Positions 2,500-7,113 of a stretch of DNA of 64,000 nt are shown piece after piece. The position numbers and the translations under genes were made by a program. Source of the stretch: Aquitalea magnusonii (GTDB taxonomy: Bacteria > Pseudomonadota > Gammaproteobacteria > Burkholderiales > Chromobacteriaceae); assembly GCF_002217795.2 (NCBI RefSeq), contig NZ_AP018823.1, positions 3,162,001-3,226,000 on the forward strand. The letters run 5' to 3'. Within the stretch, counting starts at the first letter, position 1. Each line of letters begins with the position of its first letter. A model generated the notes under the pieces. That model was not told where the DNA came from, searched no databases, and saw only the letters and a list, made by a program, of their open reading frames with translations.

Positions 2500-3129
2500 A
2501 TGTACACGGTCAAGGAAATCTTCTACACCCTGCAGGGCGAAGGCCGACAAGCAGGCCGCGCTGCAGTGTTTTGCCGCTTTAGCGGCTGTAATCTGTGGTC
2601 TGGCCGCGAGGAAGACCGCAGCAAATCTGTCTGCCAGTTCTGCGACACCGATTTTGTCGGCACCGGCCCGGATGGCGGCAAGTTTGCCACCGCCGCCGCA
2701 CTGGCCGCCCGCATTGCCAGCCAATGGCCGGCAGGCAGCGGCGGCACACCCTATGTGGTGTGCACCGGTGGCGAGCCGCTGCTGCAACTGGACAGCGCGC
2801 TGATTGATGCCCTGCATGCCGAGGGTTTTGAAATCGCGGTGGAAACCAATGGCACCATCGCCGCACCGGACGGTATCGACTGGATCTGCGTCAGCCCCAA
2901 GGCCGGCTCACCCCTGCTGCAAACCCGTGGCAACGAATTGAAGCTGGTCTACCCGCAAGCCACCCAGCTGCCGGAAACCGTCGCCCATTTGCAGTTCGAC
3001 ACCTTCTACCTGCAGCCGATGGATGGCCCGGAGCTGGCCGCCAATACCCGCGCCGCCATTGCCTACTGCATGGCACACCCGCGCTGGCGGCTGTCGGTGC
3101 AGACACACAAGGTGGTCAACATCCGTTAA
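2500..3129 (+). CDS. queE: 7-carboxy-7-deazaguanine synthase QueE
   Basis: QueE is the radical-SAM enzyme that contracts 6-carboxytetrahydropterin to 7-carboxy-7-deazaguanine, the step between QueD and QueC. Residues 5-15 read KEIFYTLQGEG, typical of the family. The cluster-binding cysteines are C30, C45 and C48, a CX14CX2C spacing that is one of the non-canonical variants known for QueE. The TGGEPLL substrate loop follows. The protein is 209 residues from ATG 2500, which has a well-spaced GGGGGA site. An ATG at 2494 overlapping the queD stop would add two residues. It is the last gene of the operon and a strong terminator follows at once. Confidence 0.95.
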   Translation: MYTVKEIFYTLQGEGRQAGRAAVFCRFSGCNLWSGREEDRSKSVCQFCDTDFVGTGPDGGKFATAAALAARIASQWPAGSGGTPYVVCTGGEPLLQLDSALIDALHAEGFEIAVETNGTIAAPDGIDWICVSPKAGSPLLQTRGNELKLVYPQATQLPETVAHLQFDTFYLQPMDGPELAANTRAAIAYCMAHPRWRLSVQTHKVVNIR

Positions 3130-3133
3130 ACCG

Positions 3134-3161
3134 TCGGGCGCACAGTCGCCCGATTTTTTTT
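3134..3161 (+). terminator. Intrinsic terminator of the que operon
   Basis: A perfect 7-bp stem (TCGGGCG with CGCCCGA, 3134-3140 and 3147-3153) has a 6-base loop and is followed by eight T. It starts 5 bases after the queE stop codon and isolates the following bufferin genes from que transcription. Confidence 0.92.
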
Positions 3162-3169
3162 GCCTGATC

Positions 3170-3196
3170 GTGTAAGAAAGCACAAGTGAGGCCGAC
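3170..3196 (+). promoter_or_regulatory. ECF-sigma-like promoter motif, copy 1
   Basis: GTAAG (3172-3176) is separated by 16 bases from CGAC (3193-3196). The 12 bases GTGTAAGAAAGC at 3170-3181 are repeated exactly at 3308. A GTAA-type -35 and a short CG-starting -10 at N16 is the architecture of extracytoplasmic-function sigma promoters, which are known to control DUF2282/DUF692 loci in Neisseria and Caulobacter. Promoter activity is inferred. Confidence 0.5.
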
Positions 3197-3307
3197 AGAT
3201 ACTGCAGAGACAGTCACGCAGCAGACCGGCGGAAACAGCATTGAACGTATTGCAACAGCAGCCAATGGCAGCGAAATGCAAATAATTTCAAAATATTTTC
3301 TGCCAGT

Positions 3308-3334
3308 GTGTAAGAAAGCCCCCGCCCGTGCGAC
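3308..3334 (+). promoter_or_regulatory. ECF-sigma-like promoter motif, copy 2
   Basis: This is a second GTAAG (3310-3314) N16 CGAC (3331-3334), with the same 12-base -35 block and the same spacing as the copy 138 bases upstream. It sits about 50 bases before the first precursor gene start, the natural place for the main promoter of the bufferin operon. Confidence 0.6.
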
Positions 3335-3383
3335 TGACTCCTGAAACCCGGCACTTGCCGCTTACCCCCGACAGGAGATTGAC

Positions 3384-3650
3384 ATGAACGCTTCCAAGAC
3401 TCTGCTTGCTTCCGCCATGGGCGCTGTTGTTACCCTGGCTGCGCTGGCTGCCGCCCCCGCCCAGGCCGCAGAACAGGAAAAATGCTATGGCGTGGCCATG
3501 GCCGGCATGAACGACTGTGCCTCCGCCACCGGCGCACACGGCTGCAAAGGCCAGGCCACGGTGGATAAAGACCCGGGCGACTGGAAACTGCTTGCCAAGG
3601 GTAGCTGCCAGCAAATGGGTGGCAATACCATGGCACCAATGAAACAATAA
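3384..3650 (+). CDS. bufA1: DUF2282 bufferin precursor peptide, copy 1
   Basis: This 88-residue secreted peptide belongs to the DUF2282 (BufA1) family, ribosomally made precursors that are modified on cysteines by BufB/BufC and exported to sequester metal, copper in the studied cases. Residues 1-28 are a signal peptide ending in a PAQA-A cleavage site. The mature part has exactly four cysteines, C34, C45, C54 and C75, in the family pattern EKC, NDC, HGC and GSC, plus the conserved KDPGDWK block at 62-68. An AGGAG site lies 8 bases before the ATG. It is the first gene of the operon and 51 bases downstream of ECF-like promoter motif 2. Metal specificity cannot be read from sequence. Confidence 0.9.
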   Translation: MNASKTLLASAMGAVVTLAALAAAPAQAAEQEKCYGVAMAGMNDCASATGAHGCKGQATVDKDPGDWKLLAKGSCQQMGGNTMAPMKQ

Positions 3651-3671
3651 GCAGTCTATTGCAGATAGCCA

Positions 3672-3705
3672 TGCGGCATGGTCCAAGTAGACCCACCATG
3701 CCGCA
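3672..3705 (+). other. Intergenic hairpin between the two precursor genes
   Basis: A perfect 10-bp inverted repeat (TGCGGCATGG with CCATGCCGCA) closes a 14-base loop. It has no T tail, so it is not a standard terminator. It may stabilise or attenuate the mRNA between the two bufA genes, but that is inference. Confidence 0.55.
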
Positions 3706-3750
3706 CAGAACACCCCCTCTTGCTTGATCTTGTTCCACAGGAGAAACACC

Positions 3751-4005
3751 ATGAATGCATCCAAAGCCCTGCTCGCCTCCGCTCTCGGTGCCGTTGTCGC
3801 CATGGGCGCCCTCAGCGCCACCCCGGCTGTTGCTGCAGAAAAAGAAAAATGTTTCGGCATTGCCCAGGCCGGCAAGAACGACTGCGCCTCGGCCACCGGC
3901 AGCCACTCCTGCGCCGGTCAGGCCACCAAGGACAAGGACCCCGGCGACTGGAAATACGTCGCCAAGGGCAGCTGCGAAAAAATGGGCGGCAAGCTGGCCA
4001 AGTAA
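3751..4005 (+). CDS. bufA1: DUF2282 bufferin precursor peptide, copy 2
   Basis: This second DUF2282 precursor, 84 residues, is clearly a paralogue of the one just upstream. Cysteines are at the same positions (34, 45, 54, 75), the signal peptide is similar and ends in VAA, and the KDPGDWK block is identical. It differs mainly in being richer in lysine ([15 protein letters not shown]) and in lacking the Met-rich tail of copy 1. The ATG at 3751 follows an AGGAG site; an upstream in-frame start would add nine non-signal residues. Tandem duplication with divergence suggests that either dose or metal preference differs between the two products. Confidence 0.9.
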
Positions 4006-4071
4006 TCCGCTCCGCCACGGTTGCCGGCCAGGGCCGGCAGCCTCCTCCCCTCTCTCCTGGTAAACCTGGTC

Positions 4072-4902
4072 ATGACTGCGTCTTCCCTTCCCGCCGTTGC
4101 CGGCATCGGCCTGCGTGCGCCCCACTATCGTCAGGTGCTGGACACCCTGCCACCGCTGGGCTGGGTGGAAGTACACAGCGAAAACTTCTTTGATGGCGGC
4201 ATGCCGCTGGCCATGTTGCAGCGGGTGGCGCAACACTATCCGCTGTCGCTGCACGGCGTGGGACTGGGACTGGGTTCGCTGGTGCGCCCGGATGGAGAAC
4301 ATCTGGCGGCGCTCAAACGGCTGGTGGATGCCATCCAGCCAGCGGCAGTATCAGAACACCTGTCCTTCAACCACAGTGCGCAGCGTTATGTAAACGACCT
4401 GCTGCCCATTCCTTACACCAGCGCAGCGCTGGAGGTAATTGCCAGCCATGTGGCGGAAACCCAGGACGCGCTGGGGCGGCGCATCTTGCTGGAAAACCTG
4501 TCCAGCTATGTGGAATACCCCGGCAACGAGATGAACGAAGGCGAGTTTCTGGCAGAGCTGGTAAAGCGCACCGGTTGCGGCCTGCTGCTGGACGTCAACA
4601 ATCTCTACGTCAATGGCATCAATCTGGGAACCGATGTACAGGCCGTGCTGGCCGCCCTGCCGGCGGAGGCCATTGGCGAAATCCATCTGGCAGGCTATAG
4701 CGAGCGCGACGGCATGCTGGTGGATACCCACAGCCAGCCGGTACACCCCGGCGTCTGGCAGCTATACGCCCAGGTCATCGCCGATATTGGCCCACGCCCG
4801 ACGCTGATCGAGTGGGATCTGGACATTCCGCCGCTGGACACACTGCAGGCCGAAGCGGCCAAGGCCGACACCATCCTGCAAGGAGCGCGTCATGACGCCT
4901 GA
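4072..4902 (+). CDS. bufB: MNIO (DUF692) peptide-modifying oxidase BufB
   Basis: BufB belongs to the multinuclear non-heme iron-dependent oxidase family (DUF692, TIM barrel). With its partner BufC it oxidises cysteines of the DUF2282 peptide, giving thiooxazole-type groups in studied bufferins. Family landmarks are visible: GIGLRAPHY at the N-terminus, SENFF, LHGVGLGLGS, SEHLSF, LENLSSY, LDVNNLYVN, HLAGY and a C-terminal LIEWD. The His, Asp and Glu in these blocks are the expected iron ligands. The ATG at 4072 gives 276 residues, the usual length, but has no obvious ribosome site. The last 11 bases overlap bufC. Confidence 0.93.
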   Translation: MTASSLPAVAGIGLRAPHYRQVLDTLPPLGWVEVHSENFFDGGMPLAMLQRVAQHYPLSLHGVGLGLGSLVRPDGEHLAALKRLVDAIQPAAVSEHLSFNHSAQRYVNDLLPIPYTSAALEVIASHVAETQDALGRRILLENLSSYVEYPGNEMNEGEFLAELVKRTGCGLLLDVNNLYVNGINLGTDVQAVLAALPAEAIGEIHLAGYSERDGMLVDTHSQPVHPGVWQLYAQVIADIGPRPTLIEWDLDIPPLDTLQAEAAKADTILQGARHDA

Positions 4903-5641
4903 AGCACGCTGGCAGGCCGAGCTGCTGGAGCTGATCGCCCACCCCGACCAGGCCGCTGACACCACACTGGGACTCCATCCTGCCGGGCTGGCGGTCTATC
5001 GCAACAACTACCGCGTCGGCCTGATCGAAACCCTGAACATGATTTACCCGGTGTGCGGCCAAATTGTCGGCACGGAATTCATGACCGGGCTGGCGCGCGA
5101 ATACAGCAAGCGCCATGCCTCGCACTCGGGCAATCTGCATCGCTATGGCGGCAGTTTTGGCGACTTCCTGCAGGATTTTCCACCGGCACAGGCACTACCG
5201 TATCTGCCCGATGTGGCCCGGCTGGAATGGGCGGTGCATCGCAGCTATTACGCCATCGACCAGACCCCGCTGGCGGCCACGGCACTGAGCGGCATCCACC
5301 CGGATCAATTCGGCCAGCTACGCTTGCGCCTGAGTGACAGCAGCCTGGCCCTGTCATCGCCCTGGCCGGTGGTTGCCATCTGGCAGGGCCATCAGCCAGG
5401 CCAGACGCTGAATGTAGACCTTGAGTCCGGCGGCGAACAGGCACTGGTCAGCCGCCATGCCGGCAAAGTCCGCGTACAGGCAGAAACAGCCGGCATGGCT
5501 GCCCTGTTGCTGGCACTGCAACAGGGCTTGCTGCTGGAAGAAGCAGCCGGACTGGCCTTGTCGGCACAACACGATTTCGACCTGCAAGCCGGGCTGGCGC
5601 GCCTGTTTGCCGACGGCCTGCTCAGCCACTACCAACTGTAA
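4892..5641 (+). CDS. bufC: DUF2063 partner protein BufC (HvfC/BufC N-terminal domain)
   Basis: This 249-residue protein has an N-terminal DUF2063 domain, recognisable by ALYRNNYRVG-like and MIYPVC blocks around residues 30-55. BufC proteins bind the precursor peptide and present it to BufB. The second half is a variable domain ending in a helical region. The gene overlaps bufB by 11 bases, the usual arrangement for this obligate pair. No membrane segment or signal peptide is visible, so it should act in the cytoplasm on the precursor before export. Confidence 0.9.
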   Translation: MTPEARWQAELLELIAHPDQAADTTLGLHPAGLAVYRNNYRVGLIETLNMIYPVCGQIVGTEFMTGLAREYSKRHASHSGNLHRYGGSFGDFLQDFPPAQALPYLPDVARLEWAVHRSYYAIDQTPLAATALSGIHPDQFGQLRLRLSDSSLALSSPWPVVAIWQGHQPGQTLNVDLESGGEQALVSRHAGKVRVQAETAGMAALLLALQQGLLLEEAAGLALSAQHDFDLQAGLARLFADGLLSHYQL

Positions 5642-5712
5642 AACCAAAGCTGGTTCACCATCCGTCGGCCTGGCGGAGGGGTGCGGCTTGTCCACTGCAC
5701 GGGAGACCGACC

Positions 5713-6177
5713 ATGCAAGTTCTCAGACCAAAACTGCTGCCACTGCAGCAACTGTTCGACCAGGCCAGTCACTGCGCCCGTCCGCTGGTGCTGCTGCTGT
5801 TCCGGCTGTGGGTGGCAAATGTATTTTTCAAATCCGGCCTCACCAAGCTGGCTGACTGGGACACCACCCTGCTCTTGTTTACCGAGGAATACCACGTACC
5901 CTTGCTGCCGCCCGCCCTGGCCGCGGTAATGGGCACCTTTGGCGAAACCGTGTTTTCCAGCCTGCTGGCCGTCGGGCTGTTTGGCCGCTTTGCCGCCGCC
6001 GGGCTGTTCGTGGTCAACCTGATGGCGGTGATCAGCTACCCCGGCCTCACCGACGTCACCCGCCAGTTCCATTACTACTGGGCCATGCTGCTGCTGGCAC
6101 TCTTCGCCTTCGGCCCCGGCACCCTGGCGCTGGATGCCGCCTGGCAACGCTGGCGCCAGCGTCGCAGAGGGCATTGA
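5713..6177 (+). CDS. DoxX family membrane protein of the bufferin locus
   Basis: This 154-residue DoxX-family protein has four predicted membrane helices: roughly 23-40 (LVLLLFRLWVANVFF), 70-88, 92-110 and 125-140. DoxX-like proteins (HvfX in related loci) often accompany DUF692/DUF2063 genes, and their role in export or redox steps is unproven. A GGGAG site lies before ATG 5713. The gap to bufC is 71 bases, so it is probably co-transcribed. The charged C-terminus (RWRQRRRG) would lie in the cytoplasm. Confidence 0.85.
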   Translation: MQVLRPKLLPLQQLFDQASHCARPLVLLLFRLWVANVFFKSGLTKLADWDTTLLLFTEEYHVPLLPPALAAVMGTFGETVFSSLLAVGLFGRFAAAGLFVVNLMAVISYPGLTDVTRQFHYYWAMLLLALFAFGPGTLALDAAWQRWRQRRRGH

Positions 6178-6270
6178 AGCCACAGCGCCGGATGGGGACA
6201 CATCCCCATTCCGGCTGCGAGCCTGCAAGTGGCATAATGGCGGCTTGCTCAACAGATTCCATGCCCGCCC

Positions 6271-7113
6271 ATGTCCACTACCCTCGTCATTCAATCCCCC
6301 CGTCTCGACAGCCGCGAACTGCAGGAGCTGGCCAACCTTGCCGGCGCCAGCAGCATCCAGCAGCCCAGCCCGGACGTGGCCAGGCTGGCAGATGCCGACC
6401 CGGCCAGCCGCGATGCCATCAGCGCCTGCTGCCAGACCCTGGGCTATGACTTTGCCTTTGTCGACAGCAGCCTGAAACTGGCCGACTTCGGCCTGTTGGT
6501 GTCCGATATGGACTCGACGCTGATCACCATCGAATGCATTGATGAAATTGCCGACATGCAAGGCATCAAGCCGCAAGTAGCCGCCATTACCGAACGCTCG
6601 ATGCGTGGCGAGCTGGATTTTTCGGCCTCGCTGCGCGAACGGGTTGCCTTGCTGGCCGGCCTGCCGGAAAGCGCGCTGGAAAAGGTATATCAAGAACGCC
6701 TGCAACTGAGCCCTGGCGCGGAACAACTGCTGGCCCGCTGCAAGGAAAACGGCATCCGCTTCATGCTGGTTTCCGGTGGTTTCACCTTCTTTACCGAGCG
6801 GCTGAAACAACAACTGGGGCTGGACTATGCTTACGCCAACCAACTGGAAGTGGTGGACGGCAAGCTGACCGGCCGCGTGGTGGGCGATATCGTGGATGCC
6901 GCCGCCAAGCAGCGCCTGCTGATCGAAAAGCGCACAGAACTTGGCTTGCGTCCGCAACAGGTGATTGCCATGGGTGACGGTGCCAACGACCTGCTGATGC
7001 TGGGTGAAGCCGGCGTGGGTGTGGCCTACCGCGCCAAACCGGTGGTGCAGGCCAAGGCCGATGTTGCCATCAATATCGTAGGACTGGATGGCGTGGCCAG
7101 GCTGTTTGCCTGA
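6271..7113 (+). CDS. serB: Phosphoserine phosphatase SerB
   Basis: SerB catalyses the last step of serine biosynthesis, hydrolysing O-phosphoserine. It is a HAD-superfamily enzyme. The nucleophile motif DMDST is at 79-83 (Asp79 and Asp81), followed by IECIDEIADMQG, MRGELDFSASLRERVALL, motif II LVSGGFTFF and motif III MGDGANDLLML. The first 70 residues form a short N-terminal extension, less than a full ACT domain. At 280 residues it matches betaproteobacterial SerB. The ATG at 6271 has only a weak ribosome site. A PilZ-like gene follows after 25 bases. Confidence 0.95.
   Translation: MSTTLVIQSPRLDSRELQELANLAGASSIQQPSPDVARLADADPASRDAISACCQTLGYDFAFVDSSLKLADFGLLVSDMDSTLITIECIDEIADMQGIKPQVAAITERSMRGELDFSASLRERVALLAGLPESALEKVYQERLQLSPGAEQLLARCKENGIRFMLVSGGFTFFTERLKQQLGLDYAYANQLEVVDGKLTGRVVGDIVDAAAKQRLLIEKRTELGLRPQQVIAMGDGANDLLMLGEAGVGVAYRAKPVVQAKADVAINIVGLDGVARLFA

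Follow-up and report, generated by a model that had tools for sequence, protein, structure and literature searches.

A Buf1-type bufferin operon of Aquitalea with two sister precursors and two candidate extracytoplasmic function promoters

Gene content of the locus

The window is a 64-kb stretch (G000:C1:3162001-3226000) of the complete 4.85 Mb chromosome of Aquitalea magnusonii, and it carries an operon for bufferins, a family of copper-related ribosomally synthesized and post-translationally modified peptides (RiPPs). Genes for two precursor peptides, bufA1 and bufA2, are followed by genes for the maturase BufB, its partner protein BufC and a DoxX-type membrane protein. By its genes this is a genuine Buf1-type bufferin operon with two sister precursors, and two sites upstream of bufA1 resemble promoters of extracytoplasmic function (ECF) sigma factors. 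The features are as follows, in window positions.

3133..3154, + strand: terminator-like hairpin directly 3' of a queE-like gene, parting the buf genes from the que genes (terminator scan; 8-pair stem and T run)
3171..3196, + strand: distal ECF-type promoter-like site, TGTAAG-N16-CGAC, TGTAAGAAAGCACAAGTGAGGCCGAC (pattern search, alignment)
3309..3334, + strand: proximal ECF-type promoter-like site, TGTAAG-N16-CGAC, TGTAAGAAAGCCCCCGCCCGTGCGAC (75 bases before bufA1; A/T-rich stretch just upstream)
3384..3650, + strand: bufA1, Met-rich DUF2282 precursor, 88 amino acids (PF10048, 77.5 bits versus a cut-off of 22.4)
3672..3705, + strand: hairpin between bufA1 and bufA2, stem of 11 (fold; intergenic z = -2.35)
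3751..4005, + strand: bufA2, Lys-rich DUF2282 precursor, 84 amino acids (PF10048, 85.1 bits versus 22.4)
4019..4042, + strand: hairpin between bufA2 and bufB, on weak evidence (fold; z = -1.01)
4072..4902, + strand: bufB, MNIO-family bufferin maturase, 276 amino acids, ATG start (PF05114, 345.8 bits; NF050167 MNIO_BufB, 360 versus a cut-off of 310)
4892..5641, + strand: bufC, partner protein with DUF2063 and an element like the RiPP recognition element (RRE), 249 amino acids (PF09836; overlaps the end of bufB)
5713..6177, + strand: doxX, bufferin-cluster membrane protein, 154 amino acids (PF07681, 54.7 bits)

The initial annotation, made from the letters of the window, had described two DUF2282 peptides with cysteines at positions 34, 45, 54 and 75, followed by the BufB, BufC and DoxX genes that make up a bufferin cluster, and the family matches, the sequences and the gene order bear this out. 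In its span for the locus, 3165 to 6177, position 3165 is intergenic, and the operon's own signals begin at 3171. The four cysteines are invariant across an alignment of 45 precursors, picked for spread from 102 references (100 from surveyed loci and the two window peptides). The order of precursor, MNIO and DUF2063 partner genes, with DoxX, is that of Buf1, and bufA1 and bufA2 are the only DUF2282 matches in the chromosome. Both precursor N-termini look signal-like by eye, with a basic start, a hydrophobic run and AQAA or AVAA before the mature part. In NCBIfam, the sole model to match a precursor is that of the other bufferin family, BufA2 (NF050166), which the bufA1 product reaches at 27.9, below the cut-off of 60, and the bufA2 product does not match. 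BufC and DoxX match the Hvf models NF050145 and NF050144, both below cut-off.

BufB aligns with the solved MNIO-family chains 3bww, 8hci_D and MbnB, and its nearest named relatives, among the best 80 of 131 BufB relatives, are from Aquitalea species and 93-96% identical. In Pfam, BufC carries only the DUF2063 signature, and a sequence search found no solved relative. The BufC structure model (predicted local distance difference test, pLDDT, 91.9), built on 29 of 78 references picked for spread (77 and the window's own), has hits at E < 0.001 to NGO1945 (3dee) and to 8hci_A, the partner chain of TglHI, and weak ones (E 0.3-0.5) to MbnC and the RRE protein TbiB1. Such matches are expected for the type-1 partners, DUF2063 plus RRE-like, of PMC12452194. 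In the BufA1 model, residues 31-80 have pLDDT of about 90, with two strands (31-35, 67-71) and a short helix (74-77), and a comparison with solved folds gave no match (best E 5.5). In Buf1, modification falls on the central two cysteines, and a disulphide joins the outer two (PMC12452194, Fig. 3 legend). The Buf1 type is further defined by conversion of Cys to thiooxazole and by copper binding, and thiooxazoles are reported to absorb near 305 nm (PMC13097082).

Divergence and conservation of the precursors

Tandem precursors as a class are already in print, and the same paper discusses one enzyme pair serving several precursors (PMC12452194). In the window, the two copies differ in composition: counted from five residues before the first cysteine, copy 1 has five Met, six Lys+Arg and six Asp+Glu, whereas copy 2 has one, ten and seven. 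This charge difference had been noticed in the initial annotation together with the tails, Met-rich GGNTMAPMKQ in copy 1 and Lys-rich MGGKLAK in copy 2, and both were confirmed. The difference recurs in all seven Aquitalea loci, in which copy 1 has 4-7 Met and copy 2 has 1-2, and the copy-1 tail is kept too. It does not extend into a general rule: of the rows examined, only those from Aquitalea include a Met-rich copy, and the divergent copy counts 2-3 Met in seven Chromobacterium loci and none in four loci of the C. haemolyticum group.

Related loci were collected through BufB, as the best 80 of 131 relatives. BufA frames in these 80 loci were found by a pattern rather than a profile, which missed the first copy of L047 (read later in G020), any second copy of L051 and any copy of L053. 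DUF2282 is present in 57 of the 61 family genomes. All ten genomes of the window's genus have exactly two matches, as do 18 of the 19 genomes of a second genus (g2) that is taken as the Chromobacterium group; elsewhere there is mostly one. Tandem copies are also found in 14 Photobacterium loci.

To judge from substitution rates, bufA1 and bufA2 are both under purifying selection. Between the window and five other Aquitalea, each precursor has a nonsynonymous rate (dN) of 0.015-0.083 and a synonymous rate (dS) of 0.12-0.75, so dN is well below dS for both copies, and neither looks decayed. Between copy 1 and copy 2 inside one Aquitalea genome, dN is 0.18-0.24 (seven genomes); set against the low dN between genomes, this indicates that the copies truly differ and that their difference has been conserved. 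A tree of 53 hand-picked rows from 33 sources supports three groups, namely Aquitalea copy 1 (100/100), Chromobacterium copy 1 (99/93) and the C. haemolyticum-type copy 2 (100/100), and the canonical copies were not resolved. The approximately unbiased test (p-AU 0.32-0.54, on few columns) neither supported nor rejected a single origin for the divergent copies of these three lineages.

The second precursor could instead be mere gene dosage, with sequence differences that are neutral drift. The identical cysteine spacing and the shared enzyme set would agree with this, and closer tandem copies do exist elsewhere, with 68 of 85 positions identical in Pseudogulbenkiania subflava (L044) and 79 of 85 in Photobacterium indicum (L062). 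Dosage is a possible but doubtful explanation for Aquitalea, where the dN between the copies of one genome exceeds that of each copy across the genus, and where the tail and Met-richness of copy 1 are kept in all seven loci.

Promoter-like sites upstream of bufA1

The two ECF-type sites before bufA1, which the initial annotation does not mention, lie 138 bases apart in the same direction. The chromosome contains three matches to TGTAAG-N16-CGAC, these two sites included, and 14 to a reversed control pattern. The pattern is therefore rare rather than enriched, and its clustering before the buf genes is the point. Both sites keep the blocks TGTAAGAA and CGAC unchanged in all seven Aquitalea rows (the window and six others), and the distal spacer has diverged. 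In 16 of the 22 further buf loci from Chromobacteriaceae, a strict site stands no more than 400 bases from the first bufA found; eight of these 16 have it twice. Among the remaining six loci, L047 has the site before the first copy that the pattern missed, L045 and L051 have CGTAAGAA-N14-CGAC, L037 has TGTAAT, and L046 and L048 have none. No strict site was found in 57 buf loci outside the family.

A scan of the window found five terminator-like sites such as the one behind the queE-like gene, versus 2.7 expected in shuffled sequence. No sigma-70-type promoter was found in the region scanned, 2900-6400. We counted this, together with the terminator-like hairpin upstream, in favour of a separate, ECF-driven transcription unit.

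Other conserved blocks precede the bufferin genes of 31 loci among L069-L107 (mostly Vibrio) and of the 14 Photobacterium loci, reading approximately TGAAAG...CTATC and TGAAA...CCCTTTCTTAT. These are perhaps promoters of another sigma factor.

Further occurrences of the motif in the family show which other genes it precedes. We fetched 18 additional sites of the form TGTAAGAA-N14-CGAC; the other two of the 20 stretches are sigma loci of the window's own genome. Downstream of the motif lies msrB in L164, L165 and the g10 loci L166-L169 (frame read in L164-L167; Pfam SelR tested for L164), bufA in L170, L171 and L173, and an Oxidored_molyb gene in L172. The last resembles msrP/yedY. No downstream gene was assigned at two of the 18 sites, L163 and L176.

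In other Aquitalea genomes, at L159-L162, a Sel1-repeat gene (Pfam tested for L160) stands directly behind the motif. The promoter and start of this gene recur in L157 and L158, for which no such long frame is listed. No motif before a Sel1-repeat gene is listed for the genome of the window.

The third strict site of this genome (L128, G000:C1:4129619-4129644, minus strand) is just before an HD-GYP-like gene (PF13487), and sites related to it are listed in G001, G004, G005, G006 and G007. In G047 (L201), an HD-GYP protein 58% identical over 264 columns to that of Aquitalea is encoded between the bufferin cluster and a sigma factor gene. The HD-GYP protein could have a signalling role in the bufferin response.

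A candidate sigma factor

The consensus reported for sigma-E promoters of Neisseria is GTMAGBWTT, 12-13 bases and CGTCTAAH, with an A/T-rich stretch upstream (PMC2893595). The GTAAG and the spacing of the window sites fit this consensus, as does the A/T-rich stretch before the proximal site. The -10 region reads CGACAGA and CGACTGA in the window, and CGACTAA at some other family sites.

The genome encodes an ECF sigma factor of 186 amino acids (G000:C1:832650-833210) that matches TIGR02943 with a score of 248 versus a cut-off of 162. The next gene encodes a 59-residue protein with an H-x3-C-x2-C motif that matches the anti-sigma model NF052368 (antisigmaE) at 73 versus 50. The Neisseria and Haemophilus factors are presumably also TIGR02943 proteins. 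Homologues of the Aquitalea sigma factor (E to 1e-20) are present in 52 of the 61 family genomes. The motif TGTAAGAA-N14-CGAC was found in at least 31 of these 52 and in none of the nine without a homologue (Fisher p 0.0008, kinship not corrected); 31 and 0 are hand counts among the matches listed, and those of G059 and G060 are incomplete. As the family genomes are related, this co-distribution is support and not proof.

In two genomes, the only ones among the loci examined, a TIGR02943 sigma gene is linked to buf genes. In G039, bufABC and the sigma gene are transcribed divergently, and TGTAAGAA...CGACTAA points toward the sigma gene and TGTAATGA...CGACCAA toward bufA, with spacers one base longer than those of the window. 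In G047, bufABC-doxX is followed by genes for an oxidoreductase, the HD-GYP protein and the TIGR02943 sigma factor, and TGTAATGG...CGACTAA precedes bufA.

G047 (L201 on C13; also C34 and C36) has five DUF2282 matches and four matches in the sigma search. Its second cluster seemingly occurs three times, with the same DUF2282-sigma distance on different contigs; this may reflect a mobile or repeated segment, or the assembly itself.

One match in the window's genome, TGTAACAATCTGGACATTAGCGCGAC, sits inside the sigma gene itself, and other genomes, G015 and G022 among them, likewise have matches within the sigma gene. We count such matches as chance.

Intergenic hairpins and flanking genes

The spacer after copy 1 folds better than shuffled sequence (z <= -2) in 11 of 18 loci, and that after copy 2 in five of 18. 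Hairpin sequences differ between Aquitalea loci, and the stems recur. In the bufA1-bufA2 spacer (window 3651-3750; L028-L045), a hairpin tends to stay though its sequence changes, and z falls to -7.6 in the C. haemolyticum group. An Rfam scan of the whole window gave no match at the gathering score.

On the 5' side of the operon are frames that by eye resemble queC, queD and queE; the product of the last scores 26.8 bits for Radical_SAM, just under the cut-off of 29.5. A serB-like HAD gene, also named by eye, lies on the 3' side.

Proposed explanation and alternatives

The two promoter-like sites suggest that the operon is switched on by a stress-response sigma factor of the type that also governs the repair of oxidised methionine. 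In the explanation that we regard as probable, the locus is a Buf1 operon whose two precursors are co-substrates of one maturase and which forms its own transcription unit on two ECF promoters, under presumed TIGR02943 control. By analogy with Caulobacter Buf1, BufB and BufC would oxidise the central pair of cysteines, 45 and 54, in both precursors, a disulphide would link the outer cysteines 34 and 75, and the precursors would exit via Sec, with the mature peptides chelating copper in the periplasm. The operon would be driven by its two ECF sigma promoters, presumably read by the TIGR02943 factor, which the 59-residue zinc anti-sigma protein would hold. This pair is a likely counterpart of meningococcal sigma-E/MseR and Haemophilus RpoE2/HrsE, and bufferin production would then be part of a regulon for envelope oxidants and methionine-sulfoxide repair, a reading for which the motif before msrB, the msrP-like gene and bufA in other genomes speaks. 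The two precursors would be old paralogues kept by selection, and the hairpins that follow them may raise the mRNA of the precursors relative to that of the enzymes.

Several observations weigh against this explanation. The -10 block is CGAC and not the neisserial CGTC, and the Aquitalea sigma gene, at 832650, is far from buf. No motif-like site was found in the 600 bases before that gene, and for G041, G042 and G043 the result at the sigma genes was equally negative. Allowing one mismatch, the motif occurs 16 times in the genome versus 21 for the control, which is background, so no wider regulon emerges; in particular, no site was found before any msr gene of this genome. L046 and L048 have bufferin genes without a strict site, the invariance of the blocks in Aquitalea partly reflects kinship, and the hairpins are significant in some loci only. 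The sigma factors adjacent to buf in G039 and G047 are only 41-42% identical to that of Aquitalea. In Cupriavidus, no evidence for a start at an RpoQ promoter is reported, and deletion of rpoQ raised gig expression in metal-treated cells (PMC10304878); adjacency to a sigma gene thus does not prove control. The link from the TIGR02943 factor and its zinc-type anti-sigma protein to these promoters is one that we infer.

The operon could be under another ECF sigma factor, such as the RpoE-type (L108) or PRK09047-type (L109) protein, or an unrelated regulator, in which case the TIGR02943 assignment is wrong. The genome does encode several ECF factors, and the adjacent factor in Cupriavidus was not shown to drive the bufferin operon (PMC10304878). 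We consider this somewhat unlikely, as TIGR02943 is favoured by the likeness to the neisserial sigma-E consensus, by the co-distribution and by the adjacency seen in G039 and G047. NrsF, the partner of Caulobacter sigma-F, is absent from the genome (no PF06532 match; the Caulobacter vibrioides control was positive), which rules out an NrsF-controlled cluster as in Caulobacter.

The initial annotation had raised two possibilities for the pair, binding of different metals or a dose response. We hold it quite unlikely that the two peptides bind different metals, for example Cu(I), Ag or Au by copy 1 and Cu(II) by copy 2. Their Met content differs and this difference is conserved in Aquitalea, and bufferin clusters have also been described as gold-induced gig operons (PMC12452194; PMC10304878); however, Chromobacterium keeps a divergent second copy without Met-richness, and the cysteine positions are equal in both copies. 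A role of the conserved blocks as operators, bound by a repressor or an activator, is very improbable. A pair of similar sites in the same orientation, 138 bases from each other, can mark operators, but two blocks around a fixed 16-base spacer of free sequence have the shape of an ECF promoter, and sister genera have single sites shortly before different genes.

Conserved divergent precursors before one maturase provide a natural experiment on the substrate tolerance of BufB and BufC. If the presumed switch also governs methionine-sulfoxide repair, the stress that bufferins answer, copper alone or copper with oxidants, becomes a testable question. We further offer, as frank speculation with little chance of being right, that the pair is an arm of an oxidant-repair regulon in which Met-rich BufA1, besides buffering copper, is a methionine shield that can be renewed, and Lys-rich BufA2 is still a plain copper buffer. 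The methionines of BufA1 would then take hits from hypochlorous acid or copper-made oxidants and be mended by Msr enzymes of the same regulon.

Comparison with known systems

ECF control of DUF2282/MNIO operons, or an ECF gene beside them, is already known from Caulobacter SigF, Sinorhizobium RpoE7 and Cupriavidus rpoQ. A literature search on copper RiPPs in Aquitalea and Chromobacterium found nothing relevant among the papers listed. A DUF2282 bufferin on a TIGR02943/zinc anti-sigma promoter in Chromobacteriaceae was not found in print, among the papers listed by the searches and in those cited here, with subscription papers and preprints mostly outside their reach. What appears to be new here is the conserved pair of paralogues and the presumed TIGR02943/zinc anti-sigma control through two promoters.

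Caulobacter Buf1 (CC3252-CC3257) has the same DUF2282 precursor, DUF692 (MNIO), DUF2063 and DoxX genes in this order (PMC12452194, PMC3511200). It is under ECF control by sigF and a negative regulator through a two-block promoter, GTAACC-N16-CGAA, and the sigma-F regulon includes two DUF2282 clusters and YedY (Oxidored_molyb) (PMC3511200). In contrast, Aquitalea has two precursors per operon, no NrsF, presumably a TIGR02943 sigma factor with a zinc anti-sigma protein, and GTAAG-N16-CGAC twice. RpoE7 (ECF16) of Sinorhizobium meliloti likewise controls a linked DUF692/DUF2063 operon, SMb20527-SMb20530, with a TGTAAC-type two-block promoter (PMC6180224). It differs in belonging to a SigF-NrsF-like pair, and its authors report no induction by peroxide, cadmium or chromate (PMC6180224).

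The gigPABT genes of Cupriavidus metallidurans are a bufferin operon, so named in PMC12452194, that is divergent from the ECF gene rpoQ, as in G039. They are induced by copper and gold, and the anti-sigma factor RsqA is predicted to be membrane-bound, unlike that of Aquitalea (PMC10304878).

Sigma-E/MseR of Neisseria and RpoE2/HrsE of Haemophilus pair a sigma factor with a small zinc anti-sigma (ZAS) protein, and they control msrAB together with a DoxX cluster (PMC2893595, PMC3240639, PMC7907618). The Haemophilus DoxX cluster also holds COG3220/UPF0276 and DUF2063 proteins (PMC7907618, PMC2893595, PMC3240639). Neisserial sigma-E promoters resemble the Aquitalea sites in shape and differ at -10, with CGTC versus CGAC (PMC2893595). 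The Neisseria sigma gene is inside the operon, whereas that of Aquitalea is elsewhere, and the Neisseria and Haemophilus precursors are EGKCG peptides (gonophorin, oxazolin) and not DUF2282 peptides (PMC13097082). The likeness suggests that two families of copper RiPPs, DUF2282 in Chromobacteriaceae and EGKCG in Neisseria and Haemophilus, may be on the same kind of sigma/anti-sigma switch. The Chromobacteriaceae case would then join a Caulobacter-like DUF2282 bufferin to a seemingly neisserial switch.

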